Source of the DNA: Sphingopyxis sp. GW247-27LB | GTDB lineage: Bacteria > Pseudomonadota > Alphaproteobacteria > Sphingomonadales > Sphingomonadaceae | Assembly (NCBI RefSeq): GCF_002277025.1 | Contig: NZ_NIWD01000008.1 | Span: 69,413-133,412 of the forward strand | Direction: 5' to 3' | DNA length: 64,000 bases | Part shown: positions 3,510-23,041 of the stretch, piece by piece | How positions within the stretch are numbered: the first letter of the stretch is position 1 | How the letters are laid out: each line of letters begins with the position of its first letter | Made by a program: the position numbers and the translations under genes | Notes under the pieces: generated by a model | Told to the model about the DNA's origin: nothing | Database searches by the model: none | What the model saw: the letters and a program-made list of their open reading frames with translations, nothing else

Positions 3510-3547
3510 TGGTGGAACCGGCGGCAGACCGGATAGAGAGGGACTGA

Positions 3548-5047: not shown

Positions 5048-5057
5048 GGCCGAACCG

Positions 5058-6291: not shown

Positions 6292-6933
6292 TCAGCCCGC
6301 GGTGTCGAGCGGCCGGCCCACGCTGCCCGTCGCCAGCCGCTGCCGAACGCCGACGAGGAACATGCGCAGCGATTCGACGAACAACTCTTCGTCGCCGAAG
6401 GGATTGTCGGCGATCGCCTGCGCCAGGCTCGGAAATTTGGCGCCGTCGACCGGCGGCATCGGATCGACGCCGCGCGCGCGCGCCGACGCTTCGAACAAGG
6501 CCGTGCCGAAGGTATATTTCTCGATCGCGTCGATCACGGTCAGCTGGATCGTCGTCGGATAGGGCTCCTCGGACGCCGCGCGCTCATAGGCGGCGAGCAG
6601 CAGATGGCGCGGGAAATAGCGCAGGATCAGCGGGGCTGCGTTGGGATGCTTGAGAAGCGTCCGGCGCGTCAGCACGCAGCGCGCGATGATCTGTTCCTCG
6701 AAGGAGGGCGGTGCGCCGTCGACCGTCGGCATCCGCGCCAGCATGATGCGGGCGACTTCCTGCAGCAATTCCGACTTGTCGGTGAAGTGATGATACAGCG
6801 ACGGCGGGCGCACCCCCAGCTTGCGCGCGACATGCGAAAGGCTCAGCTCCTCGAGGCCGAGCTCGTCGATCACCTCGAGCGCCGCCTCGGCCGCGCTCGA
6901 TCGCGAAATGAGAGGTTTCGAAGGCCGCGCCAA
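6292..6933 (-). CDS. TetR/AcrR-family transcriptional regulator (block 1)
   Basis: A 213-residue one-component repressor. The N-terminal HTH reads LSLSHVARKLGVRPPSLYHHF followed by TDKSELL, a typical TetR recognition helix. The C-terminal region is a ligand-binding helical domain with the IARCVLTRRTLLKHPNAA type seen in TetR proteins that bind organic effectors. It ends 13 bp from the convergent P450 gene and is divergent from the alpha/beta hydrolase gene. The divergent region holds an ATTGNNATTA-type element (7025-7041) and a palindrome (7003-7018). I infer autoregulation and control of block 1; the effector is probably the growth substrate or its CoA ester. Confidence 0.9.
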   Translation of the reverse strand: MARPSKPLISRSSAAEAALEVIDELGLEELSLSHVARKLGVRPPSLYHHFTDKSELLQEVARIMLARMPTVDGAPPSFEEQIIARCVLTRRTLLKHPNAAPLILRYFPRHLLLAAYERAASEEPYPTTIQLTVIDAIEKYTFGTALFEASARARGVDPMPPVDGAKFPSLAQAIADNPFGDEELFVESLRMFLVGVRQRLATGSVGRPLDTAG

Positions 6934-7002: not shown

Positions 7003-7018
7003 TTATCGGCATCGATAA
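7003..7018. promoter_or_regulatory. Perfect-arm palindrome upstream of the block 1 tetR gene
   Basis: TTATCGGCATCGATAA has 6-bp arms TTATCG/CGATAA around GCAT, 70 bp upstream of the tetR start. It has the same geometry as the block 2 operators (YTATCANNNNTGATAA). It may be an autoregulatory operator or a point of crosstalk between the two TetR proteins. Confidence 0.4.
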
Positions 7019-7076: not shown

Positions 7077-7949
7077 ATGACCGGCCGCACACAGCTCAGG
7101 ACCTTCCCTTCCTCCGGTGGGGTCGAACTCGTCGGCGACCAGGGCGGCCCCGCCGACGCGCCCTGCGTGGTGCTGCTCCACGGTGGAGGGCAGACGCGGC
7201 ACAGCTGGAGCCGCGCCGTCGACCGCCTGCTCGACGCGGATCTCCAGGTCATCAACTTCGACGCGCGCGGGCATGGCGACAGCGCGTGGTCGCCCGACGG
7301 CGCCTATGCGCTCTCGGACCGGTCGCGCGACCTCGCCGCCGTGACGAAGGACCTGCGCGTGCCCTTCGTCCTCGTCGGCGCATCGCTGGGCGGCGCGACG
7401 GCGATCCAGGCGGTGCACGATGGACTGCGACCTGCCGGGGTCGTGCTGGTCGACATCGTGCCCGAGCCCGACCCGCGCGGAATCGAGCGCATCGTCGGCT
7501 TCATGCAGGGACATGGCGAAGGCTTCGCCACGGTCGAGGCCGCCACCGCCGCCGTCGCGGCCTATAATCCGCAGCGGCCGCGGCCGGCTGATGCGGGCGG
7601 GCTGATGAAGAATCTGCGCCCCGGAGCCGACGGCCGCCTCTACTGGCATTGGGATCCGCGCATCCTCGAAACCTCGCCCGCCGCGCATCATCGCGTGGTC
7701 CAGCAGGCGGCCGAAACCCTGGCGTCGCTGCCGGACGTGCCGGTCCTGCTCGTCCGCGGGCTGTCGAGCGACGTCGTCAGCGAAGCCGGCGTGGCCGCCT
7801 TTCGCCGCCAAGTGCCGCGACTCGAAATCCTCGACGTCCAGGGGGCGGGGCACATGGTTGCCGGCGATCGCAACGACGCATTCAACGCGGGCGTCATCGC
7901 CTTCGCGAAGCGGGTTCTCGCTGCCGGGGCCGTGACGCGAACAGCATAA
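7077..7949 (+). CDS. Alpha/beta-fold hydrolase
   Basis: A 290-residue cytoplasmic hydrolase without a signal peptide. It shows the oxyanion-hole HGGG (residues 35-38), RGHGDS (64-69), the nucleophile elbow GASLGG with Ser103, and the catalytic His259 in GAGHMVAGD near the C-terminus. These fit the family of C-C hydrolases, esterases and peroxidase-like hydrolases; the reaction cannot be assigned. AGAGGAGA lies directly before the ATG. It is divergent from the TetR gene and has the block 1 operator-like site in its promoter, so it probably belongs to the same catabolic programme. Confidence 0.9.
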   Translation: MTGRTQLRTFPSSGGVELVGDQGGPADAPCVVLLHGGGQTRHSWSRAVDRLLDADLQVINFDARGHGDSAWSPDGAYALSDRSRDLAAVTKDLRVPFVLVGASLGGATAIQAVHDGLRPAGVVLVDIVPEPDPRGIERIVGFMQGHGEGFATVEAATAAVAAYNPQRPRPADAGGLMKNLRPGADGRLYWHWDPRILETSPAAHHRVVQQAAETLASLPDVPVLLVRGLSSDVVSEAGVAAFRRQVPRLEILDVQGAGHMVAGDRNDAFNAGVIAFAKRVLAAGAVTRTA

Positions 7950-7952
7950 CGC

Positions 7953-7966
7953 CTTGATATATCAAG
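7953..7966. repeat. Perfect 14-bp palindrome after the hydrolase gene
   Basis: CTTGATATATCAAG is a perfect palindrome just after the hydrolase stop codon. It is flanked more distantly by AACGCC (7948-7953) and GGCGTT (7996-8001). It has no T-tract, so it may be a protein-binding site rather than a terminator. Confidence 0.3.
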
Positions 7967-8010
7967 CTTTCTGATCCTCCGTTCAAAAACCTTACGGCGT
8001 TAAATTTCGA

Positions 8011-8030
8011 ATTGACATTAAATCTAATGG
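8011..8030. promoter_or_regulatory. Operator-like site before the first TonB receptor gene
   Basis: ATTGACATTAAATCTAATGG includes the inverted repeat CATTA-AATC-TAATG (8016-8029). It shares the ATTGNNATTA core with 2271-2280 and 7027-7036, and the ATTAAAT stretch with 525-542. It lies about 56 bp upstream of the receptor start. I infer the same TetR control. Confidence 0.5.
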
Positions 8031-8085
8031 TTGTAGTTTATTGACAAGGCCGCGGCTGACGGCCTGTTTCTGGGAGGAGACGGTC

Positions 8086-10545
8086 ATGGATCGCAATGCT
8101 TCGCGTCATGCAGTTCGTTATGCCGGCCTGGCATCGGTTATCGCGCTCGCCGCCCTGGCGACGCCGGCCTGGGCCCAGGACGACGCACCCGATCCCGCGC
8201 CAACCGAGCAAGCGTCGTCAGGCAATGTGAGCGAGGGCGAGATCATCGTCACCGCGCGGCGGCGCGACGAGCGCCTGATCGATGCCCCCGTCGCGATCAC
8301 CGCGCTCGGCGGCGCGGCGCTCGACAATTACGCCGTCACCGAATTCACCGACATGGCATCGCTCGTCCCGACGATGGTCGCCGGTAAGGCGGCGTCGGGA
8401 TCGTCGGCCAGCATCTTCCTGCGCGGGGTCGGATCGACCGCGCTCAGCGCCGGTTTCGACCAGTCGGTGTCGTTCGTCGTCGACGGCATGCCGATGAGCC
8501 GTGGCCGCGAGATCGGGCTCAGCCAGTATGACGTCCAGCGCGTCGAGGTGCTCAAGGGACCGCAGGCGCTGTTCTTCGGCAAGAATGCGACCGCGGGCCT
8601 GATCTCGGTCACCACCAACAACCCAGGCGATGTGTTCGAGGCGGGGCTGAAGGTCGGCTATGGCTTCGAGGCGAAGGAGAAATATGGCGAGGGCTATATT
8701 TCGGGGCCGCTCGCCGACGGACTTCGCGCGCGTCTGGCGTTCCGCATTTCGGATAGCGAGGGCGCCTTCACCAACACGGCGGCGGAAACCTATATCGATC
8801 CGTTCGGCCTCGAACGCCATCGCAACAGCAAGAATCGCGGCTATGGCCGGACCTACAGTGGCCGCGCGACGATCGAATGGGACGCGGCCGATAATCTGAC
8901 CTTCCAGGTCAAGACCGGTTACACCGACCAGAAGGACGGCGGCCCGACCGATATCATCGAGCGCATCTGCGGCGGCGGCCGCACCGTGCCCTTTGCCGCG
9001 AACGGCATCCCGCCGAGCCCCAATGCCGATTGCGTCATCAACGGCCGTTCGGACAGCTCGACCATTCCCGTCGAGGTCGCGGGGCTCGATTACCGCTATG
9101 CCGGCGACGGCCACATGTATTCGCGGCTGAAGTCGGGCTTCGGCATCCTGACCGCGACCCTGACCAGCGACGTGTTCGACGTCACCTCGATCACTTCCTA
9201 TTACCGCTTCAAGCAGACCGACCTCAACAATGTGTCGGGTGAGGCCTATCCGGCGACCTTCTCGCAGCTTGCCGACTATCGCCAGACGTCGGAGGAACTG
9301 CGCTTCCAGTCGAAGTGGGACGGGCCGGTCAATGTGCTGTTCGGACTGTTCGCGTCGAGCAACAAGTTCATCTTCAACACCGACGCCTATATCTTCCCGT
9401 TGCCGGCCGTCGCCGCGGGCACGACCTATGTGACCTTCAAGCGCGACAACGGCTTTTCGGGCAGTTCGATGTCGGCCTTCGGCGAAGTGACCGCGAACCT
9501 GTCCGACGCGATCGAACTCGCGGCGGGCGCGCGCTACAGCTATGAATCGCGCGACAGCTTCCAGGCGTCGCTCGCCGCCAATCCGGCCTTTGCCGCTGCT
9601 TTCCCCGGTGGAGTGCGCGTCGATGATCGCTATCGTGAGTCGGACGTCTCTCCGCAGGTTACTCTGCGCTACAAGCCGTCGCGCGACCTCACCTTCTATG
9701 CGGCTTATAAGGAAGGCTTCAAATCGGGCGGTTTCAACATTTCGCAGACGTTGACCGCCGGAATGACGCCCGAGCAGCTCGGCGCGGCCGGCAAGTTCGG
9801 CGCCGAGCGCGCCCGCGGCGGCGAAGTCGGCGCCCGCGCGATCCTGATGGGCGGCGCGCTTTCCCTCAATGCCACCGCTTATTATTACGACTATCTCGAC
9901 CTGCAGGTGCAGAATTTCGATCCCGTGACGATCGGCCAGGTCGTAGCGAATGCTGGCACGCTGCGGGTCAAGGGCATCGAGGGCGATTTCAACTGGCGCT
10001 CGGGCGGCTTCTCGCTGCGCGGCGCGGCGGCGTACAATAATGCATCTTACAAGGATTATGTCGGCCAATGCTATGGTGGCCAGACGATCGCGCAGGGTTG
10101 CAACCTGCTCGCGCCCGCGCCTGGAGCCGCCTTCACCAGCCAGGATTATGACGGCCTGACGCCGCCCAAGGCGCCGCGCTTCGCCGGCCGCCTCGGTGCG
10201 AGCTATGAGGTCGAGCTGTCGGGTTCGGGCCTGCGCCTCGAGGCGAGCGGCGATATGAGCTACTCGTCGAAGTATAATTTCTCGGACACGCTGCGTCCCG
10301 ACGCGGTCCAGCCGAGCTTCACGAAGTTCGATGCCTCGCTGCGGCTGAAGGGGCCCGAAGACCGCTGGACCCTGGCACTGATCGGCCGCAACCTCAGCAA
10401 CAAATATATCGTCACCGGCGGCTCGGAAATTCCGTTCACCGGCGGGACCGGCACGGGAACCGCGGGGCCGGGCGTGCTCAGCGACCTGTCGGCCTTCGTC
10501 GACAACCCGCGCGAGTTCTACATCGAGGCGTCCGTGAAATTCTGA
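8086..10545 (+). CDS. TonB-dependent outer-membrane receptor (block 1)
   Basis: An 819-residue TonB-dependent transporter that would import a large or scarce substrate across the outer membrane. It has a signal peptide ending near TPAWAQ, a TonB-box-like GEIIVTARRR, a plug domain with VERVEVLKGPQALFFGKNAT-type sequence, and a C-terminal barrel ending in Phe (FYIEASVKF). The start at 8086 is preceded by GGGAGGAG and gives a normal signal peptide; the frame is open from 8041. The next gene starts inside its stop codon (TGATG), so the receptor and the secreted hydrolase are translationally coupled. It is probably the uptake arm of the block 1 pathway; the substrate is unknown. Confidence 0.93.
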   Translation: MDRNASRHAVRYAGLASVIALAALATPAWAQDDAPDPAPTEQASSGNVSEGEIIVTARRRDERLIDAPVAITALGGAALDNYAVTEFTDMASLVPTMVAGKAASGSSASIFLRGVGSTALSAGFDQSVSFVVDGMPMSRGREIGLSQYDVQRVEVLKGPQALFFGKNATAGLISVTTNNPGDVFEAGLKVGYGFEAKEKYGEGYISGPLADGLRARLAFRISDSEGAFTNTAAETYIDPFGLERHRNSKNRGYGRTYSGRATIEWDAADNLTFQVKTGYTDQKDGGPTDIIERICGGGRTVPFAANGIPPSPNADCVINGRSDSSTIPVEVAGLDYRYAGDGHMYSRLKSGFGILTATLTSDVFDVTSITSYYRFKQTDLNNVSGEAYPATFSQLADYRQTSEELRFQSKWDGPVNVLFGLFASSNKFIFNTDAYIFPLPAVAAGTTYVTFKRDNGFSGSSMSAFGEVTANLSDAIELAAGARYSYESRDSFQASLAANPAFAAAFPGGVRVDDRYRESDVSPQVTLRYKPSRDLTFYAAYKEGFKSGGFNISQTLTAGMTPEQLGAAGKFGAERARGGEVGARAILMGGALSLNATAYYYDYLDLQVQNFDPVTIGQVVANAGTLRVKGIEGDFNWRSGGFSLRGAAAYNNASYKDYVGQCYGGQTIAQGCNLLAPAPGAAFTSQDYDGLTPPKAPRFAGRLGASYEVELSGSGLRLEASGDMSYSSKYNFSDTLRPDAVQPSFTKFDASLRLKGPEDRWTLALIGRNLSNKYIVTGGSEIPFTGGTGTGTAGPGVLSDLSAFVDNPREFYIEASVKF

Positions 10546-11816
10546 TGCCCGCGCTCTCGCCGCGCGCCGCGAGCATGGCCGTGTCCCGATGGAGGCGGAC
10601 CCTCGGGGTGGCGGGCGGGGTGGCGGGCGCGCTGGCGCTCGGCGCTGCAGCGCCAGGGCAAGCCGTCGCGGCGCCAACCGCGGACAATGTCGGTGACGGC
10701 GGGGTTCCGGCTTTCTATGGCTGGCGAGGATCGCTTCCGGCCGAGGCGGGGGTCGTCCTGGCCGAGGAGCCCTTGCCTGCCGACTATTCGGTGCCATCGG
10801 CGGCGCGCGCGGTGCGTATTCTCTACACCGCGCGCGACGGCATCGCCGACACGGGCGTGTTGCCGGTGTCGGCGGCGATCTTCCTGCCGCGGGGCAACCC
10901 GCCGCCGGGTGGCTGGCCGGTCGTCGCCTGGGCGCATGGCACGACGGGCATCGCCGATGTCTGCGCGCCGTCGGCAAGGCCCAGGGGCGATCGCGACAGC
11001 CAATATCTGTCGCGCTGGCTCGACGCGGGATTTGCCGTCGTCGCGAGCGACTATCAGGGGCTCGGAACTCCCGGCATCCATCCCTATTCCAACTATCGCG
11101 CCAGTTCGTACAGCGTGCTCGACAGCGCGCGGGCGATCATCGGCGACCCGCGCTACGGCGCCGCGAACAAGGTCGTGCTCGTCGGTCAGTCGCAGGGCGC
11201 GGGCGTGGTCGTGGCGGCCGCGGGCTATGCGCCCGCCTATGCGCCGGACCTCGCAATCCGCGGCGTGGTCGCGACCGGCGCGCCGAACCTGTCGAAAGAA
11301 GCGATCGAAAGCGGCCTGGCGTCGAGTGCGACCGACGTCATGGTCACGGGCGCCTATGCGATGATCGGCTTCGAGCTCAGCCGCCTGCACGCCGACCTCG
11401 ATTCCGATGTGATCTTCACGCCCGAGGGGCGCGAGATCGAGGCCCTCGTCGCGACCACCTGCCTGCCCGGCGTGATGCAGGCGGCGGCGGAGCGCAACCT
11501 CGACCCCGCGCGAACCTTTCGCCCCGGCATGCTCAAACGCCTCTGGGACACCGACGTCGATCTGCGATCCTTCCCTTCGCTGACGCTGAGCGCGCCGTTG
11601 TTCTTCGGTATCGGTGCCGCGGATACGGCGGCGCTGCCGATGACGACGCTGACGCTGATCAACGACCTGTGCAGCCGCGGCAATACCGTCGAGGCCCGCA
11701 TCTACAAGGACAAGGATCATTCGGGGGTGGTGAACGCCGCGGCCGCCGACGCGATCGGTTTTGCCAGGGCGGCGATCGACGGCGGTCCTGTCGCTGCGAC
11801 CTGCCGCGCTTCGTGA
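10545..11816 (+). CDS. Secreted lipase-like alpha/beta hydrolase
   Basis: A 423-residue protein resembling the secretory lipase family. An Arg-rich start and a hydrophobic stretch (about residues 18-43) ending near QAVA look like a signal peptide. Catalytic features are WAHGTTG (about 129-135), the nucleophile elbow GQSQGAG with Ser216, and a late KDKDHSGVV that may carry the His. It overlaps the TonB receptor stop by one base (TGATG), so both are made together. A hydrolase acting in the periplasm or outside that releases the imported molecule from an ester would fit. The length suits the family; substrate specificity is not readable. Confidence 0.85.
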   Translation: MPALSPRAASMAVSRWRRTLGVAGGVAGALALGAAAPGQAVAAPTADNVGDGGVPAFYGWRGSLPAEAGVVLAEEPLPADYSVPSAARAVRILYTARDGIADTGVLPVSAAIFLPRGNPPPGGWPVVAWAHGTTGIADVCAPSARPRGDRDSQYLSRWLDAGFAVVASDYQGLGTPGIHPYSNYRASSYSVLDSARAIIGDPRYGAANKVVLVGQSQGAGVVVAAAGYAPAYAPDLAIRGVVATGAPNLSKEAIESGLASSATDVMVTGAYAMIGFELSRLHADLDSDVIFTPEGREIEALVATTCLPGVMQAAAERNLDPARTFRPGMLKRLWDTDVDLRSFPSLTLSAPLFFGIGAADTAALPMTTLTLINDLCSRGNTVEARIYKDKDHSGVVNAAAADAIGFARAAIDGGPVAATCRAS

Positions 11817-12275: not shown

Positions 12276-13142
12276 TCAGCGCCAGGCAGTGTCGCCGGGG
12301 AGGCCGAGCCGCTCGGCCGCCTGCCACGCCGGCGAAGCGCGATCCTTGATGCGATCGGCGAGCTTCGCCATCGTCCCCACCATCCACCGGTCGCGGCGGC
12401 CCAGGTCGTAGCGAGGCCCGAGTTCGAGCCGCATGCGCACCGCGGGCGGCAACAGCGACACCGCGGCGCGTGCGAGCGATTTGTGCAGGAAGCGCGGTAC
12501 CGAGGGCGCAGCGCGGCCCGACTGGATGATGTCGAGAAATTCGGTGACGATCGGATGCGGCTCGAAGCGCGGCAACAGCGCCTCCATCATCGCCAGGAAG
12601 TCGGCTTCGGATTTCGGCGTTTCGGTGACGCCATAGAGTGCCGCGACGGGCTCGCCCTCGCGCCAGAAGCGCGCCTGGTCGTCGCGCGAGAGCGGCGTCA
12701 CGAAACGATGATAGGCCTTGAGGAAGCCATATTGGGCGGTCGCATAGACCCAGTTGAGCAGTTCGGGGTCGAGCGCCGAATAGGCTTCGCCCTTCGGCGT
12801 CGTTCCCGACACTTTGGCGTGCATGCGGCCGACCCCGCCGATCACGCGCCGCGCGGTGCTCGCGGGGCCGTAGACGCCCGCCATCGCCGCCATGCCGGTG
12901 CGCCGCGACCGGCCGATCGGGTCGGCCTTGTAGGTCGAATGGTCCCACACCCCCGACCGGATGCGCGCGTCGGCGAATTCGAGCAGCACCGCCGCGACCC
13001 CGCCGACGGCGAGCGCGACCGGATTCTTGAACACCCGCCACTGCACCGAATCGGGCGCGAGCAGCGCGGGCTCGCCGACGGGGCTGGTGAAATCGATCGC
13101 CATCGCGGCGGGTGGACGGCTCATCTGGTTCATGGGACACAT
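12276..13142 (-). CDS. MpaB/DUF2236-family oxygenase
   Basis: A 288-residue protein of the DUF2236/rubber-oxygenase-like family, whose characterised members (MpaB, Lcp) cleave C=C bonds of isoprenoid chains. The family core is visible: RVIGGVGRMHAKVSG (His108), then YSALDPELLNWVYAT. The last segment usually reads WVHAT in relatives I know, so Tyr133 replaces a normally conserved His. The start may be 13142 or the internal ATG at 13133. A TTATCA-N4-TGATAA operator (13173-13188) sits just upstream and is shared with the divergent acyl-CoA dehydrogenase. I infer an oxidising role in block 2, possibly on an isoprenoid substrate. Confidence 0.85.
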   Translation of the reverse strand: MCPMNQMSRPPAAMAIDFTSPVGEPALLAPDSVQWRVFKNPVALAVGGVAAVLLEFADARIRSGVWDHSTYKADPIGRSRRTGMAAMAGVYGPASTARRVIGGVGRMHAKVSGTTPKGEAYSALDPELLNWVYATAQYGFLKAYHRFVTPLSRDDQARFWREGEPVAALYGVTETPKSEADFLAMMEALLPRFEPHPIVTEFLDIIQSGRAAPSVPRFLHKSLARAAVSLLPPAVRMRLELGPRYDLGRRDRWMVGTMAKLADRIKDRASPAWQAAERLGLPGDTAWR

Positions 13143-13172
13143 CCGTTGCGATTGACCTTCGGGATTAAATTG

Positions 13173-13188
13173 TTATCAGATGTGATAA
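13173..13188. promoter_or_regulatory. TetR-type palindromic operator, MpaB-like/acyl-CoA dehydrogenase divergent promoter
   Basis: TTATCAGATGTGATAA: 6-bp arms TTATCA and TGATAA around a 4-bp spacer. It is the same palindrome as at 15573-15588 and 16285-16316. It lies between divergent genes, so one site can control both. Confidence 0.7.
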
Positions 13189-13209
13189 TTGATGGCAACG
13201 GGTGGAATG

Positions 13210-14439
13210 ATGGACCTCGACTGGAGCGATGCCGAAGCGGAATTTGCGCGCGAGATTCGTGCGCTCTTCGAGCGCGAACTGACCCCCGAATTGCGCGCCG
13301 GGGCGGCGGGCATGACCAGCGTCTATGCCGATCATGACGTGTCTATGGCGTGGCAGGCGAAACTTCACGCGCGGGACCTCGCGGCGCCGCACTGGCTGCC
13401 CGAGCATGGCGGGCACGACTGGAGTGCCGCCCAATTCTATCTTTGGGCCCGCGAACGCGCGCGCGCCGGGGTGCCGCCGCTGTCGCCGATGGGCATCCAC
13501 ATGGTCGCGCACGTGATCGCGGCGTTCGGGACCGACGAGCAGAAGGCCTATTTCCTGCCGGGCATCCTGTCAGGCGAGATCTTCTTCTGCCAGGGCTATT
13601 CGGAGCCCGGCGCCGGATCGGACCTCGCGGCGCTGCAGATGAGCGCGGTGGCGGACGGCGACGATTTCGTTCTGAACGGCTCGAAGATCTGGACCACCCA
13701 CGCGGGGGAGGCGAACTGGATTTTCTGCCTCGTCCGCACCGCGAAGGGCGAGCGGCCGCAGCAGGGGATCACCTTCCTGCTGGTGCCGATGGACCAGCCG
13801 GGAGTGACGGTGCGCCCGCTGACGATGATCTCGGGCGAGACGATCCAGGCCGAAGTCTTCTTCGACGACGCACGCTCGGCGAAGGCGAATGTGATCGGCG
13901 CGGTCGATCGCGGCTGGAGCGTCGCCAAATATCTGCTCGAATTCGAACGCGGCGGGTCGGCGCACGCCCCGGCGCTCGCGATGCGGCTCGACGCGCTCGC
14001 GCGCCACGCCGCCGGGACTCCGGCGGGCGAGGGGATGCTCGGCGACGACCCGGTCTTTGCGCACAAGCTCGCGCGTGCGCGCATCCGCATCGACATATTG
14101 GAGATGATCGAGCTGCGCCTGCTGTCGTCGGCGGGACAGGGCGAAAGCGTCGGGGTGATGGCGTCGCTGATGAAAATCATGGCGACCGAGCTTGCCCAGC
14201 ATATCACCGAACTCGGCTATGAGGCCGCAGGACCCGCGGGCACCGCCTTTCAGCCGCACGCGGGGTGCCCGGGCGCCGACGTCCCCGCGCATGCGCCTCC
14301 CGCCGACGGGCACATCACCGGCGAGCCGTGGCAGGCGATCGCGCCGCTGCGCTATTTCAACGAGCGCGCGGGGTCGATCTATGCCGGATCGAACGAGATT
14401 CAGCGCAACATTCTCGCAAAGGCGGTGCTGGGGCTGTAG
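13210..14439 (+). CDS. Acyl-CoA dehydrogenase (larger, 409 residues)
   Basis: A flavin-dependent acyl-CoA dehydrogenase that would introduce a 2,3-double bond into an acyl-CoA. Motifs: CQGYSEPGAGSDLAAL and GSKIWTTHAGEANW for FAD and substrate binding, and the C-terminal RYFNERAGSIYAGSNEIQRN that binds the cofactor of the partner subunit. I choose the ATG at 13210, with GGGTGG upstream; the adjacent ATG at 13207 is possible. A TTG at 13189 directly abuts the operator and is unlikely. It is convergent with a second, shorter dehydrogenase 6 bp away. Unlike paired dehydrogenases form heteromers in steroid side-chain degradation, which is a possible parallel. Confidence 0.92.
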   Translation: MDLDWSDAEAEFAREIRALFERELTPELRAGAAGMTSVYADHDVSMAWQAKLHARDLAAPHWLPEHGGHDWSAAQFYLWARERARAGVPPLSPMGIHMVAHVIAAFGTDEQKAYFLPGILSGEIFFCQGYSEPGAGSDLAALQMSAVADGDDFVLNGSKIWTTHAGEANWIFCLVRTAKGERPQQGITFLLVPMDQPGVTVRPLTMISGETIQAEVFFDDARSAKANVIGAVDRGWSVAKYLLEFERGGSAHAPALAMRLDALARHAAGTPAGEGMLGDDPVFAHKLARARIRIDILEMIELRLLSSAGQGESVGVMASLMKIMATELAQHITELGYEAAGPAGTAFQPHAGCPGADVPAHAPPADGHITGEPWQAIAPLRYFNERAGSIYAGSNEIQRNILAKAVLGL

Positions 14440-14445
14440 CGCAGC

Positions 14446-15543
14446 CTATCCCGCCCGCTTCATCTCCGCCGCGTAGCGCGCGACATGCGCGTCGCTCGTC
14501 CCCAGACGCTGCTCGATCGCGGTGGCGCGCTTGAAATAATGGCCGACGCGCAGTTCCTCGGTCATCCCCATCGCGCCGTGAAGCTGCACCGCTTCCTGCC
14601 CGATCTGGCGGATCGCCTCGTTCGCGGTCGCCTTCGCGGCGGCGCTGGCGCGCGCGTCGCCGGGCTTCAGCGCCGCGAGCAACGCGGCCGCCGAAATCTG
14701 CTCGCGCAGCAGCAGCATGTCGACCATGCGATGCTGGAGCGCCTGGAAGCTCGACAGCGGCTGCCCGAACTGGCGGCGCTGCCGGGTGTAGCCGAGCGTG
14801 TCGTCGAGAAGGACGCGCGCGAGCCCCGCCGCTTCAGCGCACAGCGCCGCGACCGCGGCTTCGACCGCGGCGGCGAGCGCCGCTTCGCCGTCCTGCCCGG
14901 CACCGATCTCGCTCGCGCGCGACACCCACAGGCCGTCGAGCAGCAGGTCGGCGGCGGGCGCGTCGTCGATCGTCCGATAGGTATGGAGCTTGTCGCACAG
15001 CGACGCCGCGGGCAGCAGGAACAGACGGAGACGTCCGCCCTGGTCGCGCGCGGGGAGGATGATGTCGCTCGCTTCGGCGGCGAAGGGTACCGCGATCTTG
15101 TGCCCGGTCAGCGTCCAGCCGTCGGGTGCCGGTTCGGCGCGCGTGCGGATCGCGGCGATATCGCCACGCGTCTGCGGTTCCTCGATCGCGGTGACGACCA
15201 GCGCATCGCCGCGCGCGATCGCTCCGACGCGCGCCTCCTCGCCCAGCGCGAGCAGCAATGTCGCCGACAGGATGTGGCAGTCGATGAAGGGGGTGACGGC
15301 AAGCGCCGCGCCCAGTTCCTCGGCGACGATCGTCGCCGCGACGCGCCCGCCGCCGAAGCCGCCGATGCGTTCGGGAAGCGGCGCGGCGCCGACGCCGATC
15401 GCGGCATCGACCTCGCGCCATGCGGCGAGCTGCGCCTCGGCACCGCGCATTGCGCGCCGTTTCTCGAAGGGAAGCTGCTGCGCCAGAAAACGCGCGAGCG
15501 AGTCGCGCAGCAGCCGTTCTTCCTCGCTAAATTCCAGGTCCAT
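14446..15543 (-). CDS. Acyl-CoA dehydrogenase (shorter, 365 residues)
   Basis: A 365-residue acyl-CoA dehydrogenase-like protein. The N-terminal helical domain starts MDLEFSEEERLLRDSLARF; the C-terminal domain contains RRQFGQPLSSFQALQHRMVDM and QLHGAMGMTEELRVGHYFKR. The N-terminal and middle domains diverge from classical members, as in many steroid or CoA-ester-specific homologues. The start at 15543 gives the canonical N-terminus; an in-frame start at 15579 would lie inside the operator. It lies 32 bp downstream of the TetR gene on the same strand, with operator 15573-15588 in the junction. It may work with the larger dehydrogenase as a heteromer. Confidence 0.9.
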   Translation of the reverse strand: MDLEFSEEERLLRDSLARFLAQQLPFEKRRAMRGAEAQLAAWREVDAAIGVGAAPLPERIGGFGGGRVAATIVAEELGAALAVTPFIDCHILSATLLLALGEEARVGAIARGDALVVTAIEEPQTRGDIAAIRTRAEPAPDGWTLTGHKIAVPFAAEASDIILPARDQGGRLRLFLLPAASLCDKLHTYRTIDDAPAADLLLDGLWVSRASEIGAGQDGEAALAAAVEAAVAALCAEAAGLARVLLDDTLGYTRQRRQFGQPLSSFQALQHRMVDMLLLREQISAAALLAALKPGDARASAAAKATANEAIRQIGQEAVQLHGAMGMTEELRVGHYFKRATAIEQRLGTSDAHVARYAAEMKRAG

Positions 15544-15572
15544 GCCGCCGCCTATGCGCTGCGCGACAAAAA

Positions 15573-15588
15573 TTATCAAGTCTGATAA
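15573..15588. promoter_or_regulatory. TetR-type operator overlapping the tetR stop codon
   Basis: TTATCAAGTCTGATAA, extended to AATTATCA-AGTC-TGATAATT (15571-15590). It overlaps the last codons and stop of the TetR gene and lies 30 bp upstream of the shorter dehydrogenase start, so it would control a promoter within the tetR-dehydrogenase unit. Confidence 0.65.
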
Positions 15589-16223
15589 TTTTTCACCAGC
15601 CCCGCAAGCAATGTCTCGACCGTATGCTGCCGATAGCGCGCGTGCAGATCGTCGTCGGCGTGGGGCTTCCCCTCGAACACCACCTGCAGCGTCAGCCGGT
15701 TCGAATAGAGGCCGTCGGCGGCGCCGATCGTGTTGAAGTAGAAGAGCTTGGGGTCGACGTCGTGGAATTCGCCCGCGGCGATGCCCTCCTCGATGATCCG
15801 CGCCTGCGCGCCCGCGATCTTTTTGAGCAGCTCGTCACCGATGTGCCGCACGCGCTCGGGCTCGGCGTCGCGGACCATATATTGGATCAGCCGGTTGAGG
15901 TAGGGGATGCGGTAATAAGTGTCGACGATGCCCTCCAGATGGATGCGCATCCGTGTCGTGGGGGTGACGTTCAGCCGGAACAGCGCGTCGAGCTGGCGGA
16001 TCGCGCGCAGCACGTCGCGGTCGAGCAGCGCGGCGAGCATCCCCTCCTTGTCGCCGAAATAATAGCGGATCATTCCGTGGTTCACGCCCGCGCGCGCCGC
16101 GATGTCGACGATGCCCACGTCGATCTTGTCCTGTTCGCGCATCAGCGCGCTCGCCGCGTCGAGCAGAGCTTCGCGAATCGACCCTCGCGTCCGGCTTTCG
16201 GTTTTTTCGCTTGCGCTGGCCAT
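15576..16223 (-). CDS. TetR-family transcriptional regulator (block 2)
   Basis: A 215-residue repressor. The HTH is seen at about residues 38-57 (IVDIAARAGVNHGMIRYYFG), followed by DKEGMLAALLDRD. The start at 16223 is chosen because AAGGAG lies 6 bp upstream; the frame stays open to 16595 through the receptor promoter, which cannot all be coding. It is divergent from the TonB receptor gene, with two adjoining palindromes between them, and is followed by the shorter acyl-CoA dehydrogenase. Presence of YTATCANNNNTGATAA at its own promoter and at every other block 2 promoter supports it as the regulator of the block. Confidence 0.9.
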   Translation of the reverse strand: MASASEKTESRTRGSIREALLDAASALMREQDKIDVGIVDIAARAGVNHGMIRYYFGDKEGMLAALLDRDVLRAIRQLDALFRLNVTPTTRMRIHLEGIVDTYYRIPYLNRLIQYMVRDAEPERVRHIGDELLKKIAGAQARIIEEGIAAGEFHDVDPKLFYFNTIGAADGLYSNRLTLQVVFEGKPHADDDLHARYRQHTVETLLAGLVKNYQT

Positions 16224-16284
16224 CTTCGCTCCTTGCGCCCGACAGACCATCCCTCGTCCGAAATTGCAATTGCTGTTGCAATCT

Positions 16285-16316
16285 CTATCAGCAATGATAA
16301 CTATCACGTCTGATAA
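16285..16316. promoter_or_regulatory. Two abutting TetR-type operators in the tetR/TonB receptor promoter
   Basis: CTATCAGCAATGATAA (16285-16300) is followed without a gap by CTATCACGTCTGATAA (16301-16316). Each has the CTATCA/TGATAA arms and a 4-bp spacer, so repressor dimers would bind one and a half helical turns apart. The pair would cover the divergent promoters of the tetR and receptor genes. Confidence 0.7.
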
Positions 16317-16338: not shown

Positions 16339-18804
16339 ATGAGCATGATCGAGCGGTCGCTTCTTCTGGCGGGCATCGGGCTCGCGGCGCTGGCGGCAAC
16401 GCCGGCCTGTGCGCAGGAGGCGAGGGATGGCGAAGCGACGGCGCCTGACGACAGCGTGATCGTGGTGACCGCACAGCGCCGCGCCGAGGCGATCGACGAT
16501 GTCGGCCTCGCCATCCAGGCCTTTTCGGGCGACACGCTGGCGAATCTGCGCGTGACCTCGACCGAGGATCTGCAGGCGGTGGTGCCCAGCCTCAACGTCT
16601 CGCGCGGATATCAGGGGATTCCGATCTACACGCTGCGCGGCATCGGCTTCAACACGATCAACCTGTCGGCGACCTCGACCGTGGGCACCTATCAGGACGA
16701 GGTCGCGCTCGCCTATCCGTTCATGAACAGCGGGCCTGTCTACGACCTCGAACGCGTCGAGGTGCTCAAGGGACCGCAGGGCACGCTCTATGGCCGCAAC
16801 ACAACCGGCGGCCTCGTCAACTTCATCACCGCCAAGCCGAAGTTCGGGGAATTTTCGGGCGGGGTCACGGTCGAAGGCGGCAGCCAGCAGACGCTCAACA
16901 GCGAGGCTTTCCTCAATATCCCGCTCGGCGATGCGGTCGCGGCGCGCTTCGCCTTCCGCACCGAGGACAGTTGGGAAGGATGGCAGCACAGCATTTCGCG
17001 CGACGAGAAGCTCGGCGAAGTGCATCGCTATGGCGGGCGCCTGACGCTGACCGCCGAGCCGGTCGACGGCATGAAGATCGAGATCGGCGGCAATATCTGG
17101 GTCAACAAGTCCGACACGCTCGCGGGGCAGGCGGTCGGCTTCACGCCGAACACCGACCCCGCCAGCGGCACGGTGTTCAGCCTGTTCAACGCAGCGGGCC
17201 TGCCGCAATATGTCGCCGCCAATGCAGGCGGCTGGGATTCGAACAGCGCCGACTGGGCGCCGCGTTCGGTGCGCGGGGCCGATATCGGCATCGGCCCGGG
17301 GATCGACGGCCCGCTCCAGGAGGACAGCGACTTCATCGGGCTGCGCGGGCTGATCCAGTTCGACCTCACCGACGACCTCAGCTTCATTTCGCTGACCGGC
17401 TACAACCGGGTCAAGCGCGACGCCAAATATGACTGGAGCGGCGCGCCCTACGAGATCCTGATCCAGCACGCCGAAGGCCGGATCGAGAGCATCTCGCAGG
17501 AATTGCGCTTCCAGGGATCGACCGGCCCTGCCGAATGGGTAGTCGGCGGCTATTACGCCAACGACACGCTGACCGACACCAACCAGACCTTGCTCGGCCA
17601 GAACGCCAATGTCGGCGCGATCCGGGCGCTGATCGTCCAGCTTGGTCTCTTGAACACGCCGTTCAATTCGCCGGGCTACACCGCCGCCGACGTCGCGCAA
17701 TCCTTCCGCACCTATCGCGACCAGGCGGCGTTCGACACCGAGACGTGGAGCCTGTTCGCGAGCGCCGACTGGCAGCTCGCCGAGACGCTGAAGGCGACCA
17801 CCGGCGTCCGCTACACGAAGGACCGGCAGGAATATGAGGGCTGTTCGCGTTCGATCGGCGATTCGATGCTGCCCAACGTCAACCTGTTCAACCGCGCCTT
17901 CTTCTTCCAGGTCTATGGCGTCTTCACCCCGCCGATCACCGCGAACCAGTGCAACACCTTCGACGTCGACACCGGCACCTTCGGGGCGGTCACCTCGACG
18001 CTGAAGGAGGATAATGTCGCGTGGCGCGGCGCGCTGACGTGGGAGCCGGGAGACGACACCCTCCTCTATGCCTCGGTGTCGCGCGGCTACAAATCGGGAT
18101 CGACCCCGGTCAACGCGGCGAACATCGCAACGCAGAACCGCCCGGCGCGGCAGGAACAGCTCACCGCTTATGAGGTCGGCACCAAGCTGGGCCTTGCCGA
18201 CCGGCGGGTGCACCTCAACCTCGCGGCCTTCTATTACGACTATCGCGACAAGCAGCTCGCGGTCTATTTCGCCGACCCGATCTACACGACGCTGCTGCGC
18301 CTCGACAATATTCCCAAGTCGCGCGCCTATGGCCTCGACGGCGACGTCAGCATCGACGTCGCCGACAGCCTGAACCTCAGTCTCGCAGCGACCTGGCTCA
18401 AGACCGAGATCCAGGGCTATGTCGGGATCAACGCCGCCGGCCAGCCATTCGACTTCGACGGCTTCGCCTTCCCCTACAGCCCCAAATTCTCGGGCGCCGC
18501 GACGATCACCTACGACGCGCCGGTCGGCGACCGGCTCGGCGTCCGCGCGATTCTCAACGGGCGCTACCAGTCGAAGACCGGCAGCACGATCGAGGATTTC
18601 GCGCCGCTGCAGATCAAGGGCTACGGCATCCTCAACGCCAGCCTCGCCCTCTATGACCGGAACGGCAAGTGGGACGTGTCGATCTGGGGCAAGAATATCA
18701 CCGACACCTATTACTGGATGTCGGCGGCGACCAACGCGAACACGGCGGTGCGCTTCCCCGGCCGCAGCCCGAGCTATGGCGTGACCGCGAAGTTCAACTT
18801 CTGA
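16339..18804 (+). CDS. TonB-dependent outer-membrane receptor (block 2)
   Basis: An 821-residue TonB-dependent transporter. A signal peptide ends near TPACAQ; a TonB-box-like VIVVTAQRR follows; the plug domain contains YDLERVEVLKGPQGTLYGRN; the barrel ends in Phe (GVTAKFNF). The ATG at 16339 has GGGAGGG about 6 bp upstream; a second ATG follows at 16345. The frame is open from 16102, but that stretch contains the operators and the start of the opposite gene. Paired TetR operators in its promoter show that uptake is induced with block 2. Its carbohydrate, siderophore or hydrophobic substrate cannot be told from sequence. Confidence 0.93.
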   Translation: MSMIERSLLLAGIGLAALAATPACAQEARDGEATAPDDSVIVVTAQRRAEAIDDVGLAIQAFSGDTLANLRVTSTEDLQAVVPSLNVSRGYQGIPIYTLRGIGFNTINLSATSTVGTYQDEVALAYPFMNSGPVYDLERVEVLKGPQGTLYGRNTTGGLVNFITAKPKFGEFSGGVTVEGGSQQTLNSEAFLNIPLGDAVAARFAFRTEDSWEGWQHSISRDEKLGEVHRYGGRLTLTAEPVDGMKIEIGGNIWVNKSDTLAGQAVGFTPNTDPASGTVFSLFNAAGLPQYVAANAGGWDSNSADWAPRSVRGADIGIGPGIDGPLQEDSDFIGLRGLIQFDLTDDLSFISLTGYNRVKRDAKYDWSGAPYEILIQHAEGRIESISQELRFQGSTGPAEWVVGGYYANDTLTDTNQTLLGQNANVGAIRALIVQLGLLNTPFNSPGYTAADVAQSFRTYRDQAAFDTETWSLFASADWQLAETLKATTGVRYTKDRQEYEGCSRSIGDSMLPNVNLFNRAFFFQVYGVFTPPITANQCNTFDVDTGTFGAVTSTLKEDNVAWRGALTWEPGDDTLLYASVSRGYKSGSTPVNAANIATQNRPARQEQLTAYEVGTKLGLADRRVHLNLAAFYYDYRDKQLAVYFADPIYTTLLRLDNIPKSRAYGLDGDVSIDVADSLNLSLAATWLKTEIQGYVGINAAGQPFDFDGFAFPYSPKFSGAATITYDAPVGDRLGVRAILNGRYQSKTGSTIEDFAPLQIKGYGILNASLALYDRNGKWDVSIWGKNITDTYYWMSAATNANTAVRFPGRSPSYGVTAKFNF

Positions 18805-18846: not shown

Positions 18847-20391
18847 TCAATGCGAGGCGCCCATCGACACCTGCTTGGGACGCGGCGCGCACCACACCGC
18901 GATCGCGGCGATCACGAACACGACGCCCGCCGCGAGGAAGAGGTGGAGCACTCCCAGCGTCGAGGCCTGCACCTCGACCATGCGGGTGACCGCAGCGCGC
19001 GCCTGCTCGAGGGTCAGCCCAGCCTGCTGGAGCTTGTCCATCGCGCCGCCGGCGTCGTTCATCGTCGCGACGAGCTGCGCGCGCGCCGAGGCGCTCGAAT
19101 CGTCCCAGGCGGTGGTCGCGATCGCGGTGCCGACGGCGCCGCTCAGCGTGCGCAGGAAGCTCATTAGCCCCGCGGCATTGGTCTGGTCCTGCGCCGGCAC
19201 GCTCGACAGCGCGAGCGCGGTCAGCCCGACGAAGAAGAAGGGCATGCCGATCCCCTGCAGGACGTGCGGCCATGCCAGGGTCCAATAATCGACGTCGGCG
19301 GTCCAGCCCGCGCGCAGGGTCGAGATGAAGGCCATCCAGAGGATGCCGGCGCTGATCGTCAGGCGGATGTCGACCTTGCCGATCGATCCCGCCGCGACCG
19401 GTGACAGCAGCACCGCGAACACCCCGAGCCAGGCGACCACGAAGCCCGTGTCGGTCGCGGTATAGCCCGCGACCTGCTGCAGCCAGAGCGGCGTCAGCAC
19501 GACCTGCGCGAAGAAGGCGCCGAAGCCGAGCGATATGGCGAGCGTCGCGAAGCTGAAGCCGCGAAAGCGGAAGACGCGCAGATCGACGACCGGATTGGCG
19601 TCGGTCAACTCCCAGATGACGAAGGCGACGAAGCTGACCGCCGCGAGAATCGCGAGACCCACGATCCACGTCGAGCCGAACCAGTCGTGCTCGCGTCCGG
19701 TGTCGAGCATGATCTGGAAGGCGCCGACCGAGACGACGAGCAGGACGAGTCCGACCGTATCGATGCGCGCCTTGACCCGCTTCGTCTCGAACCCGCCGAG
19801 CATGCTGCCGACCCCGAAGGCGCAGATCGCGACGACCGGCAGGTTGATGAAGAAAATCCACGGCCAGCTCCAATTGTCGCTGATCACGCCGCCGAGGATC
19901 GGCCCGAGGATCGGTGCCGTGGTCGTGGTCATCGCCCAGATGGCGAGCCCGACCCCGGCCTTTTCCTTGGGAAAGATGCGCAGCAGCAGGATCTGCGACA
20001 GCGGCATCAGCGGCCCGCCCGACAGGCCCTGCAGGACGCGGAAGAGGATCAGTGCGTCGAGCGTGCGCGACACGCCGCACAGGAAGGAAAAGAGGCCGAA
20101 GCCCGCGATCGAGATCAGGAACCAGCGCACCGTGCCGAAGCGCGCGGCGAGCCATCCGGTAAGCGGCACGCTGATCGCGTCGGCGACCGCGTAGCTGGTG
20201 ATGACCCACGTTCCCTGCGTCGGCGACACCGCGAGGCCGCCCGCGATATGCGGCACCGACACATTGGCGATGGTGGTGTCGAGCACCACGACGAAATTGG
20301 CGAGCGCGAGCGCGAAGGCAGCGGCGATCAGCCGCATGCCCGTAAGCGGTTGCGGCTCCGCGGGAAGGGTCGAGGCGGCGGCGCTGGCCAT
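18847..20391 (-). CDS. EmrB/QacA-type (DHA2) MFS drug transporter
   Basis: A 514-residue inner-membrane proton antiporter with about 14 hydrophobic helices. Helix 1 carries the DHA2 hallmark LDTTIANVSVP, followed by the loop GWLAARFGTVRW. It would pair with the HlyD-type adaptor gene 6 bp upstream and the outer-membrane NodT lipoprotein before that, making a complete tripartite exporter. The operon order is outer-membrane component, adaptor, pump. It is likely induced by relief of the divergent TetR repressor. Substrates are probably toxic hydrophobic compounds. Confidence 0.93.
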   Translation of the reverse strand: MASAAASTLPAEPQPLTGMRLIAAAFALALANFVVVLDTTIANVSVPHIAGGLAVSPTQGTWVITSYAVADAISVPLTGWLAARFGTVRWFLISIAGFGLFSFLCGVSRTLDALILFRVLQGLSGGPLMPLSQILLLRIFPKEKAGVGLAIWAMTTTTAPILGPILGGVISDNWSWPWIFFINLPVVAICAFGVGSMLGGFETKRVKARIDTVGLVLLVVSVGAFQIMLDTGREHDWFGSTWIVGLAILAAVSFVAFVIWELTDANPVVDLRVFRFRGFSFATLAISLGFGAFFAQVVLTPLWLQQVAGYTATDTGFVVAWLGVFAVLLSPVAAGSIGKVDIRLTISAGILWMAFISTLRAGWTADVDYWTLAWPHVLQGIGMPFFFVGLTALALSSVPAQDQTNAAGLMSFLRTLSGAVGTAIATTAWDDSSASARAQLVATMNDAGGAMDKLQQAGLTLEQARAAVTRMVEVQASTLGVLHLFLAAGVVFVIAAIAVWCAPRPKQVSMGASH

Positions 20392-20397
20392 CGCGTC

Positions 20398-21564
20398 CTA
20401 CCGGCCGCGCGTGTCGATGGTCGCTTCCATCGACAGGCCGACGCGCAGCGGGTGCGCCTTCAATTCCTTGGGATCGAGCGCGATGCGCACCGGCAGGCGC
20501 TGTACCACCTTCACCCAATTGCCCGTGGCATTCTGCGCCGGGATCAGCGAGAAGGCGGCGCCGGTGCCGCCGGCGATGCCGACGACCTTGCCGTGATAGA
20601 CGACGTCGCCGCCATAATAGTCGGAGGTCAGCTCGACCGGCTGGCCGACGCGGATCTTCCTGAACTGGCTTTCCTTGTAATTGGCGTCGACATAGGCGGT
20701 GGCGATCGGCACGATCACCATGATCGGGGCGCCGGCGGCGATCCGCTGGCCGACCTGCACCTGCTTGTTGGTGACGATGCCGTCGACCGGGGCGCGGATC
20801 ACCGTGCGCGCGAGGTCGAGCTTCGCCTTGTCGAGCCGGGCTTCCGCCGCCGCGACGTCGGGGGCGGTGTCGATCGTCGTGCCGCGCACGACTGCCTCAG
20901 CGGCGCCGAGATCGCCCGCGGCCGAGCCGCGCGTCGCTTGCGCCGAGGTGACCCCCGCCGCGGCGAGGTCGCGCGCCGCTTGCGCCTGCTTCAGGCTCGC
21001 GCGCGCCGCGGTCAGCTCCTCGCCCGATACCGCGCCGGTGCCGGCGATGCTCTCGCGCCGCGCCAGCTCGGCGCGGGCGCGCTCGACCGTCGCGTCGGCG
21101 TCGCGCAGCCGCGCTTGCGCCTGAGAAATCTCTGCCCCGCGTGCCGCGACGCGCGAGCGTGCGGCGTCGGCGGTCGCATCGGCCTGGCCATAGCGCTGGC
21201 GCGCCTGGCGCAGCGCCGCCTCGGCATCGGCGAGCGCGATGCGTTGATCGGCATCGTCGAGGATGATCAGGATATCGCCCCTCTTCACCGCCTGCGTGCC
21301 GCTGACGCGCACCTCCTGAACCGGTCCCGAGACGAGCGCGGTGACCGCGGCGCTGTCGGCGCCGACATAGGCGTTGTCGGTCGACACACGGCCCGCCTGG
21401 GTCAGGAAATACCAGAGGCCCCACAGCGCCGCGATCGTGATGACCGTGATCGCGAGGATGCGGAGCAGCTTTCTGCGCTTCGCCAGCCGCGCCTCCTTCG
21501 CCTCGTCGCTTTCGGGAGCGTCTTGGGGAGGGGTGGGGGCGGCCGTAGCCGCGTCGTCGGCCAT
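20398..21564 (-). CDS. HlyD/EmrA-family membrane fusion protein
   Basis: A 388-residue periplasmic adaptor. One N-terminal transmembrane segment (LLRILAITVITIAALWG) is followed by a lipoyl half-domain, a long Ala/Arg-rich coiled-coil hairpin (from about residue 85 to 200) and a second lipoyl/beta-barrel half (RAPVDGIVTNKQVQVGQ, LTSDYYGGDVVYHGKVVG). I choose the ATG at 21564 because AGGAGA is 7 bp upstream. The ATG at 21570 overlaps the upstream stop (ATGA) but abuts the ribosome site. It links the MFS pump to the outer-membrane factor. Confidence 0.9.
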   Translation of the reverse strand: MADDAATAAPTPPQDAPESDEAKEARLAKRRKLLRILAITVITIAALWGLWYFLTQAGRVSTDNAYVGADSAAVTALVSGPVQEVRVSGTQAVKRGDILIILDDADQRIALADAEAALRQARQRYGQADATADAARSRVAARGAEISQAQARLRDADATVERARAELARRESIAGTGAVSGEELTAARASLKQAQAARDLAAAGVTSAQATRGSAAGDLGAAEAVVRGTTIDTAPDVAAAEARLDKAKLDLARTVIRAPVDGIVTNKQVQVGQRIAAGAPIMVIVPIATAYVDANYKESQFRKIRVGQPVELTSDYYGGDVVYHGKVVGIAGGTGAAFSLIPAQNATGNWVKVVQRLPVRIALDPKELKAHPLRVGLSMEATIDTRGR

Positions 21565-21566
21565 CG

Positions 21567-22988: not shown

Positions 22989-22998
22989 GGCGTCCAAC

Positions 22999-23014
22999 GA
23001 TACTAGCTGGTATC
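22999..23014. promoter_or_regulatory. Operator-like palindrome between efflux operon and its TetR gene
   Basis: GATACTAGCTGGTATC is a near-perfect palindrome (arms GATAC/GTATC; 14 of 16 symmetric). A related half, GATACCAG, recurs at 23056-23063. It lies between the divergent start codons and is the likely site of repression and autoregulation. Confidence 0.6.
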
Positions 23015-23041
23015 ATGCGCCCAATAGCGTCAGGAGTTGGG

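Follow-up and report, generated by a model that had tools for sequence, protein, structure and literature searches.

A conserved palindromic motif marks a predicted TetR regulon of uptake and catabolic genes in Sphingopyxis and related Sphingomonadales

Introduction

KstR and KstR2 are TetR repressors with several operators over genes of steroid beta-oxidation. Caenibius tardaugens belongs to the same order as Sphingopyxis. In the available part of its description, EdcR, a sphingomonad TetR-type estrogen-dependent repressor from C. tardaugens, has a proposed palindrome over the -10 box of several promoters, its own included, and the respective operons encode acyl-coenzyme A (acyl-CoA) dehydrogenases and a TonB receptor (PMC8700777). 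A similarly organized system, which consists of a TetR-family regulator (hereafter TetR2), its candidate operators and a module of five genes (mpaB, acadL, acadS, tetR2 and tonB2), is encoded in Sphingopyxis sp. GW247-27LB, within a stretch of 64,000 nucleotides (hereafter the window). The motif of KstR and KstR2 is unlike that of TetR2, and TetR2 scores 20.3 bits with the KstR model NF033703, the cut-off of which is 280. EdcR has a different operator (TnnCnnTACnAnTnGTAnnGnnA) and a TetR_C_11 domain, whereas TetR2 contains TetR_C_9; no MpaB-type gene appears in the accessible portion of the EdcR description (PMC8700777).

Some of the enzymes predicted for the module also belong to described groups. 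According to the available excerpts of the respective reports, proteins of the MpaB/latex-clearing-protein family, such as Nro1 of Gordonia, cleave carbon-carbon double bonds (C=C) and contain heme b (PMC12724181), and alpha2beta2 dehydrogenases contain one catalytic Glu per subunit pair, and the side-chain enzymes of bile acid-degrading Sphingomonadaceae are described as unknown (PMC8399759). No description of the present motif or system was found in the open-licence literature, among the matches listed and in the parts of these sources that were accessible. We regard it as very probable that the system described here is a genuine TetR regulon, conserved and under autoregulation, and it appears highly likely that TetR2 is an autoregulated repressor of uptake and catabolism genes that acts through the predicted palindromic operators.

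Results

The motif YTATCANNNNTGATAA is present in the window in four copies, each without mismatches and exactly where the original prediction had placed them (Table 1). All four precede gene starts (mpaB/acadL, acadS and tetR2/tonB2), in agreement with the claim that they occupy promoter positions. The absence of any other full match, originally noticed for the window, extends to the whole genome: among 4,791,544 bases in 20 contigs, the exact motif occurs at just these four places, all in one 3.2-kb stretch, and there are no random exact matches away from promoters. The reversed control pattern has no exact place in the entire 4.79-Mb genome, and about 0.02 matches per strand are expected from base composition at the GC content of the window. 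When up to two mismatches are allowed, the window contains 10 strand-wise matches (5 places), compared to a mean of 0.55 and a maximum of 3 in 100 shuffles, and the genome contains 32 places vs 9 for the control, which indicates that near matches are somewhat over-represented as well.

Along the window, the module is arranged in the order mpaB (minus strand), operator A, acadL (plus), acadS (minus), operator B, tetR2 (minus), operators C1 and C2, and tonB2 (plus). Operator A is located between the ATG codons of mpaB (13142) and acadL (13210; this codon was read from the sequence, and the searches started at 13213). The acadL and acadS genes are convergent and each have their own operator, with operator B positioned 29 bp before the acadS ATG (15543). 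C1 and C2 are two side-by-side 16-bp operators in the 115-bp gap between the divergent starts of tetR2 (16223) and tonB2 (16339). The inverted repeat ATTGCAA-N6-TTGCAAT, which adjoins C1, is recognizable by eye in nine Sphingopyxis modules with tonB2 and is decayed in one that lacks this gene (G044); part of this repeat is possibly the -35 box of tonB2 or a site of a second factor.

Distribution of the module and the motif

Ten of the 80 Sphingopyxis genomes, as well as eight genomes from four further genera, encode the module in whole or in part, with the sites at equivalent positions (G000 denotes Sphingopyxis sp. GW247-27LB itself, other G numbers denote the compared genomes, and L numbers the genome stretches that were read). 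The motif is present in 12 of the 80 Sphingopyxis genomes, of which ten are the module-bearing ones; the other two contain one copy each, inside open reading frames (ORFs). Likewise, mpaB homologs with at least 81% identity are found in exactly these ten genomes, in nine of them as orthologs (81-90%) at the same place in the module, whereas 33 other genomes encode homologs with 61-66% identity. A search of 60 of the 80 genomes, complemented by tblastn against the modules retrieved from the remaining two module genomes, identified TetR2 at 90% identity or higher in all ten; 91-97% orthologs are encoded in 7 of the 59 same-genus genomes searched. Outside Sphingopyxis, the eight genomes harbor nine modules (two in G235) in which TetR2 is 70-78% identical. 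A comparison set of 26 genomes was picked for motif matches; the unselected test is a search for TetR2 in 396 genomes of the order Sphingomonadales, 90 of which contain the motif. In this search (E <=1e-70, seven best candidates per genome scored), TetR2 was identified in 10 genomes (two Sphingopyxis and 8 outside the genus), all of which have the motif, compared to 80 of the 386 genomes without TetR2. Within the same family (313 of the 396 genomes), the respective fractions are 10/10 and 27/303 (Fisher p 1.6e-10, ignoring relatedness). No relative of TetR2 above 45% identity was found in PLSDB, which thus provided no evidence of plasmid carriage.

Conservation, loss and relocation of the sites

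Over the five genera, the half-sites TTATCA and TGATAA are fixed while the 4-nt spacer and the flanks drift. All 10 Sphingopyxis modules retain operator A, as do 7 of the 9 loci from other genera, and this site also precedes the relocated acadL of G185; the stretches read of G380 yielded no acadL. Operator B precedes acadS in 19/19 modules, with a single mismatch in the G380 copy. The tandem C1/C2 arrangement, with the sites 16 bp apart, is retained in each of the nine Sphingopyxis modules with tonB2, and a pair 17 bp apart is found in three modules of other genera, with at least one C site for each of 7 other tonB2 copies.

Natural losses and rearrangements are informative in this respect. 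The tonB2 gene was not found in the module stretches read of G044, G128 and G234; in the first of these, C1 is degraded (2 mismatches) and C2 is gone, and in the stretches of the other two no C site was detected at up to two mismatches. In G185, which is represented by one contig, mpaB and acadL (757 kb) are separated from tetR2, acadS and tonB2 (3.17 Mb) by 2.4 Mb along the record, or by 0.9 Mb the other way if the molecule is circular. Two sites accompany mpaB and acadL at this distant position, one about 130 bp before mpaB and the other 23 bp before the acadL start as aligned. The G380 genes are split between two contigs: C14 carries an mpaB gene and tonB2, the latter preceded by a site, and C26 carries tetR2 and acadS. 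Where target genes have been lost or relocated, the sites have gone with them. A distinct arrangement is seen in G229, where an additional TetR-domain gene (L123:11198-11896) lies between operator A and mpaB.

Predicted remote members of the regulon

A one-mismatch copy of the motif, TTATCAGGCCTGAGAA (G000:C16:203717), is located 38 bp before a gene for a 520-amino-acid acyl-CoA ligase. This ligase was searched in 26 genomes, 18 module-bearing ones and 8 hand-picked module-less Sphingopyxis. In all nine evaluable module-bearing Sphingopyxis genomes (in G117, the gene is cut by a contig end), the variant TTATCANNNNTGAGAA is found 38 to 51 bases before the aligned ligase coding sequence (orthologs with 80-100% identity), whereas none of the 8 module-less genomes has a site with up to two mismatches within 350 bp of the ligase. 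Scanning of six of the nine module-bearing relatives revealed a second candidate remote target, a TonB receptor, which was followed in 24 genomes, ten of them with the module and 14 without it. The receptor orthologs (81-100%) are preceded by TTATCANNNNTGAGAA at -36 to -43 in 7/7 module-bearing genomes and in 0/9 module-less ones; no such ortholog is encoded in the other 8 genomes, G000, G034 and G105 among them (best identity 50-52%; no homolog in G046). On the tree of this receptor, the module label changes at least twice, and a single clade is rejected (p 5e-6). Given the similar appearance of the promoters in the two TonB groups, the coding sequence may have been exchanged under a single ancestral promoter. 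In all 16 Sphingopyxis trans sites, the gene-side half is TGAGAA in place of TGATAA, which suggests that repression may be graded. The operator can accordingly be defined as TTATCA-N4-TGAKAA, with predicted members on two contigs.

These remote sites bear on the original view of the motif as the mark of a complete local regulon. The motif does predict one TetR, its sites and the neighboring genes, as borne out by the presence of the motif in all ten TetR2-encoding genomes of the order-wide set, but the predicted regulon is neither complete nor local as first described, given the conserved one-base variant before the ligase in G000 and before the TonB receptor in seven relatives. Other near matches in G000 were treated with more caution. 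With the four operators, the ligase site, the site at 7003 and a match inside an ORF (C1:671481) set aside, 25 places were judged by ORF and by GC content at third codon positions alone, and for 8 of these a likely ORF start is found no more than 250 bp away (L165, L175, L176, L177, L179, L180, L183 and L186). None of the eight was accepted as a regulon member because module-less genomes were not compared. The L165 site (TTTTCAATATTGAGAA) is found again in G034 and G105 with an unchanged spacer, which fits plain inheritance. Similarly, TTATCACCGGCGATAA (G059, G044 and G026) was rejected because its spacer is identical and, in G059, it is located at an ORF end, so that coding constraint is probable. 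Additionally, TTATCGCGGCTGAGAA occurs in G059, G026 and G001, and a site in G229 (C53:13948) precedes a MipA-domain ORF, for which no second case was found.

The regulator, the promoters and the proposed mechanism

TetR2 contains an N-terminal TetR-type helix-turn-helix domain (PF00440, E 3.9e-09, 36.6 bits vs a cut-off of 24) and a C-terminal TetR_C_9 domain (PF14514, E 8.6e-35, 120.1 bits vs 25.3). Four recognition-helix residues, H49, M51, I52 and R53, are invariant in 18/18 TetR2 orthologs. Among 15 homologs with 35-43% identity, H49 is never found, and M51, I52 and R53 are present in two, four and one, respectively; no site with 0-1 mismatches was detected in the stretches read for these homologs. 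A scan of 29 homolog loci (L013-L034 and L106-L112) yielded a 2-mismatch place in L019 and a 1-mismatch place in L111. The presence of the motif follows the TetR2 recognition helix.

In 15 of the 18 instances of operator A, TTGACn ends exactly 15 nt before TTATCA, which places a putative -10 box, at the usual spacing, within the operator. In the ligase promoter, TTG[CT]CA is located 17 nt before TTATCA in 9/9 cases. A promoter scan produced one sigma-70-like match that spans operator A (13198-13169, on the minus strand, which is that of mpaB), with 0.5 expected; such a scan is too weak alone, so that the spacing argument rests on conservation. The simplest reading of these features would be repression through covering of the -10 box.

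From the computed features, namely the sites, their distribution, co-loss and co-movement, the overlap with promoter-like boxes and the difference in the helix, we infer a mode of binding, repression and induction. A TetR2 dimer would bind the 16-bp palindrome TTATCA-N4-TGATAA and, once bound, cover the -10 box of the uptake and catabolism promoters, keeping these genes off until an inducer, most likely the imported substrate or its CoA thioester, binds the C-terminal domain and causes release. The predicted members in G000 are mpaB, acadL, acadS, tetR2 and tonB2, along with the ligase that would be controlled through the conserved, one-base-weaker site TTATCA-N4-TGAGAA; in the seven relatives, the remote TonB receptor would be added.

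Protein components and predicted function

The mpaB product contains the MPAB_Lcp_cat domain (PF09995, E 2.9e-50, 171.9 bits vs a cut-off of 23), and His residues including H108 are invariant in 17/17 relatives; no solved relative was detected by sequence up to E 0.1. Its predicted role derives from family reports, in the parts available (PMC12724181). The two dehydrogenase subunits match the NCBIfam models pimC_large (acadL, E 8e-83, 278.5 bits) and pimD_small (acadS, E 1.7e-61, 208.4 bits). Because both scores are below the respective cut-offs (623.85 and 652.7), assignment to the PimC/PimD pimeloyl-CoA dehydrogenase equivalogs was rejected. Among solved structures, acadL is closest to the large subunits of alpha2beta2 steroid dehydrogenases, namely ChsE4 (4x28_A, 2.8e-48) and Tcur3483 (5e-40); in acadS, the N and C domains are matched by Pfam and the middle domain is below the cut-off. 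As in ChsE4-ChsE5 and Tcur3483-Tcur3481 (4x28, 6wy8 and 6wy9), the catalytic Glu is found in the large subunit only: the Glu of acadL that aligns with the catalytic Glu of ChsE4 (which we take to be Glu247) is kept in 17/17 relatives, and acadS has A or G, and no Glu, in this column in 18/18. Unlike these systems, acadL and acadS are convergent and have separate operators.

A TonB importer, an MpaB-type protein, a CoA ligase and a two-subunit dehydrogenase under common control suggest that the compound taken up and degraded is a bulky lipid containing a C=C bond. For the order of reactions and the substrate, we infer that, after TonB-dependent import, the MpaB-type protein would cleave a C=C bond oxidatively, the ligase would activate the product with CoA, and a two-subunit enzyme similar to those that act on bulky steroid side chains would carry out alpha,beta-dehydrogenation. 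The substrate is perhaps a terpenoid or steroid side chain. The original designation of the unit as catabolic fits the gene content. That the module supplies the bile-acid side-chain enzymes of Sphingomonadaceae is speculation.

Alternative explanations

Several observations weigh against the proposed TetR2 regulon or parts of it. Co-occurrence ties the sites to the module and not to TetR2 rather than another factor as their reader, and the p values overstate independence because the module-bearing genomes are related. At least one motif match is present in 27 of the 303 family members without TetR2, and three genomes of one genus (g36; G149, G160 and G225) contain several matches and just 38-40% homologs of TetR2. 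In G000, 27 places with up to two mismatches occur in addition to the four operators and the ligase site, compared to 9 for the control. At operator B, transcription runs from tetR2 toward acadS, and a separate acadS promoter is an assumption, no sigma-70 match at this operator having been obtained in the scan. With respect to the remote ligase, the tree does not reject a single clade (p 0.24), and the sites before the ligases of other genera (49-67%) are patchy, 4 of 8 having a place with up to two mismatches, at -43, -43, -111 and -244. Finally, Tcur3481 (6wy8_A, E 2.8e-24) ranks first for acadS by only a small margin over other dehydrogenases (1ukw_A, 1.2e-23), and ChsE5 (4x28_D, 2.2e-13) ranks far lower.

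It is conceivable that another factor, either a nearby TetR or a global regulator, binds the palindromes and TetR2 is a passenger. Two further TetR genes are located near the module (6292-6933 and 23015-23692), a related palindrome is found at 7003, and the genome-wide excess of near matches is also in line with such a factor. However, the TetR encoded at 23015 accompanies an efflux pump that is found beside the module in G000, G034 and G105 only, yet the sites are present in all 19 modules; the parts kept in all 19 are TetR2 and acadS with operator B (the modules being defined by TetR2). A global regulator should have exact sites elsewhere in the genome, where there are none, and motif presence tracks the TetR2 recognition helix, which together make a different reader quite unlikely. 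The possibility that TetR2 is an activator, not a repressor, appears very unlikely as well: some TetR-family proteins do activate, AtrA being reported as an activator, but in the same report, as far as its available text goes, five of the five tested regulators with divergent gaps below 200 bp repress (PMC3511530), the tetR2-tonB2 gap is shorter than that, and the sites overlap the inferred -10 box instead of being upstream of the -35 box. Conservation of the repeats for some other reason, such as codon usage, a role in transcription termination or the identity by descent of closely related DNA, is barely plausible. Operator B does extend into the coding sequence of tetR2, and the genomes are related to one another, but the spacer and flanks diverge over five genera where the half-sites do not, the ligase and TonB orthologs of module-less genomes have no site, and the sites are decayed or absent where the target is missing. 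An autoregulated TetR2 regulon is the explanation preferred here.

Table 1. Coordinates of the predicted TetR2 regulon components in the window
Feature	Position	Strand	Comment
mpaB-like gene, MPAB_Lcp_cat (oxygenase-type) protein	12276..13142	-	PF09995; predicted regulon member
TTGACC, putative -35 of large-dehydrogenase promoter	13152..13157	+	conserved spacing to operator A
operator A TTATCAGATGTGATAA, common to divergent mpaB/acadL promoters	13173..13188	.	overlaps putative -10
acadL, large (catalytic) acyl-CoA dehydrogenase subunit, PimC/ChsE4-like	13210..14439	+	Pfam, NCBIfam, PDB
acadS, small acyl-CoA dehydrogenase subunit, PimD/Tcur3481-like	14446..15543	-	Pfam, NCBIfam, PDB
operator B TTATCAAGTCTGATAA before acadS, over tetR2 final codons and stop	15573..15588	.	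0 mismatches
tetR2, TetR-family regulator (TetR_N and TetR_C_9)	15576..16223	-	Pfam
inverted repeat ATTGCAA-N6-TTGCAAT adjoining C1	16263..16282	.	read from sequence
operator C1 CTATCAGCAATGATAA, divergent tetR2/tonB2 promoter	16285..16300	.	0 mismatches
operator C2 CTATCACGTCTGATAA, abuts C1 directly	16301..16316	.	0 mismatches
tonB2, TonB-dependent outer-membrane receptor	16339..18804	+	PF00593, PF07715; predicted regulon member

Neighboring loci

The related palindrome TTATCGGCATCGATAA (7003-7018), with 2 mismatches, belongs to another unit, where it is located between a TetR gene (6292-6933, minus strand) and genes for an alpha/beta hydrolase, a TonB receptor and a secretory-lipase-like protein (7077-11816, plus strand). 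These genes form a parallel unit, perhaps with a regulator of its own. Just upstream of this unit, a Rieske oxygenase subunit, an adenosine monophosphate (AMP) ligase and a cytochrome P450 are encoded (2331-6278). On the other side of the module, there is an EmrAB-like pump of the major facilitator superfamily along with an adaptor, a NodT-type outer-membrane channel and an AefR-like TetR (18847-23692); among the module stretches read, this pump block is present in G000, G034 and G105 only. The catabolic blocks are followed by flagellar genes (26303-53099), which encode a sigma factor, rod and hook proteins, FlgK, flagellin, MotA, MotB, FliM, FliK and an ATPase of the type III secretion system/flagellar type. 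A further locus about 48 kb from tetR2 (L065:1-14001, G000:C1:30000-44000) encodes a TetR2 homolog (36-37%), a P450, a TonB receptor and a partial acadL homolog; no motif with 0-1 mismatches was detected in this block.

Implications

Altogether, what was a bare motif becomes a predicted regulon with a named regulator and with natural cases of loss and relocation over five genera. Shared control joins an MpaB-type protein, a two-subunit steroid-type dehydrogenase and an acyl-CoA ligase, and this is stronger functional evidence than gene neighborhood. The remote sites present a case of orthologous genes that bear the operator only where the genome owns the regulator. A bolder scenario, which we consider rather doubtful, is that a transferable module, on entering a genome, recruited a core acyl-CoA ligase and a TonB receptor by gaining one-base-weaker operators, and may open the C=C bond of a bulky terpenoid or steroid side chain via an MpaB-type heme oxygenase followed by an alpha2beta2 dehydrogenase, which would be an undescribed route. 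If this is true, the module would be a candidate for the Sphingomonadaceae side-chain enzymes that are called unknown in the available text of PMC8399759.

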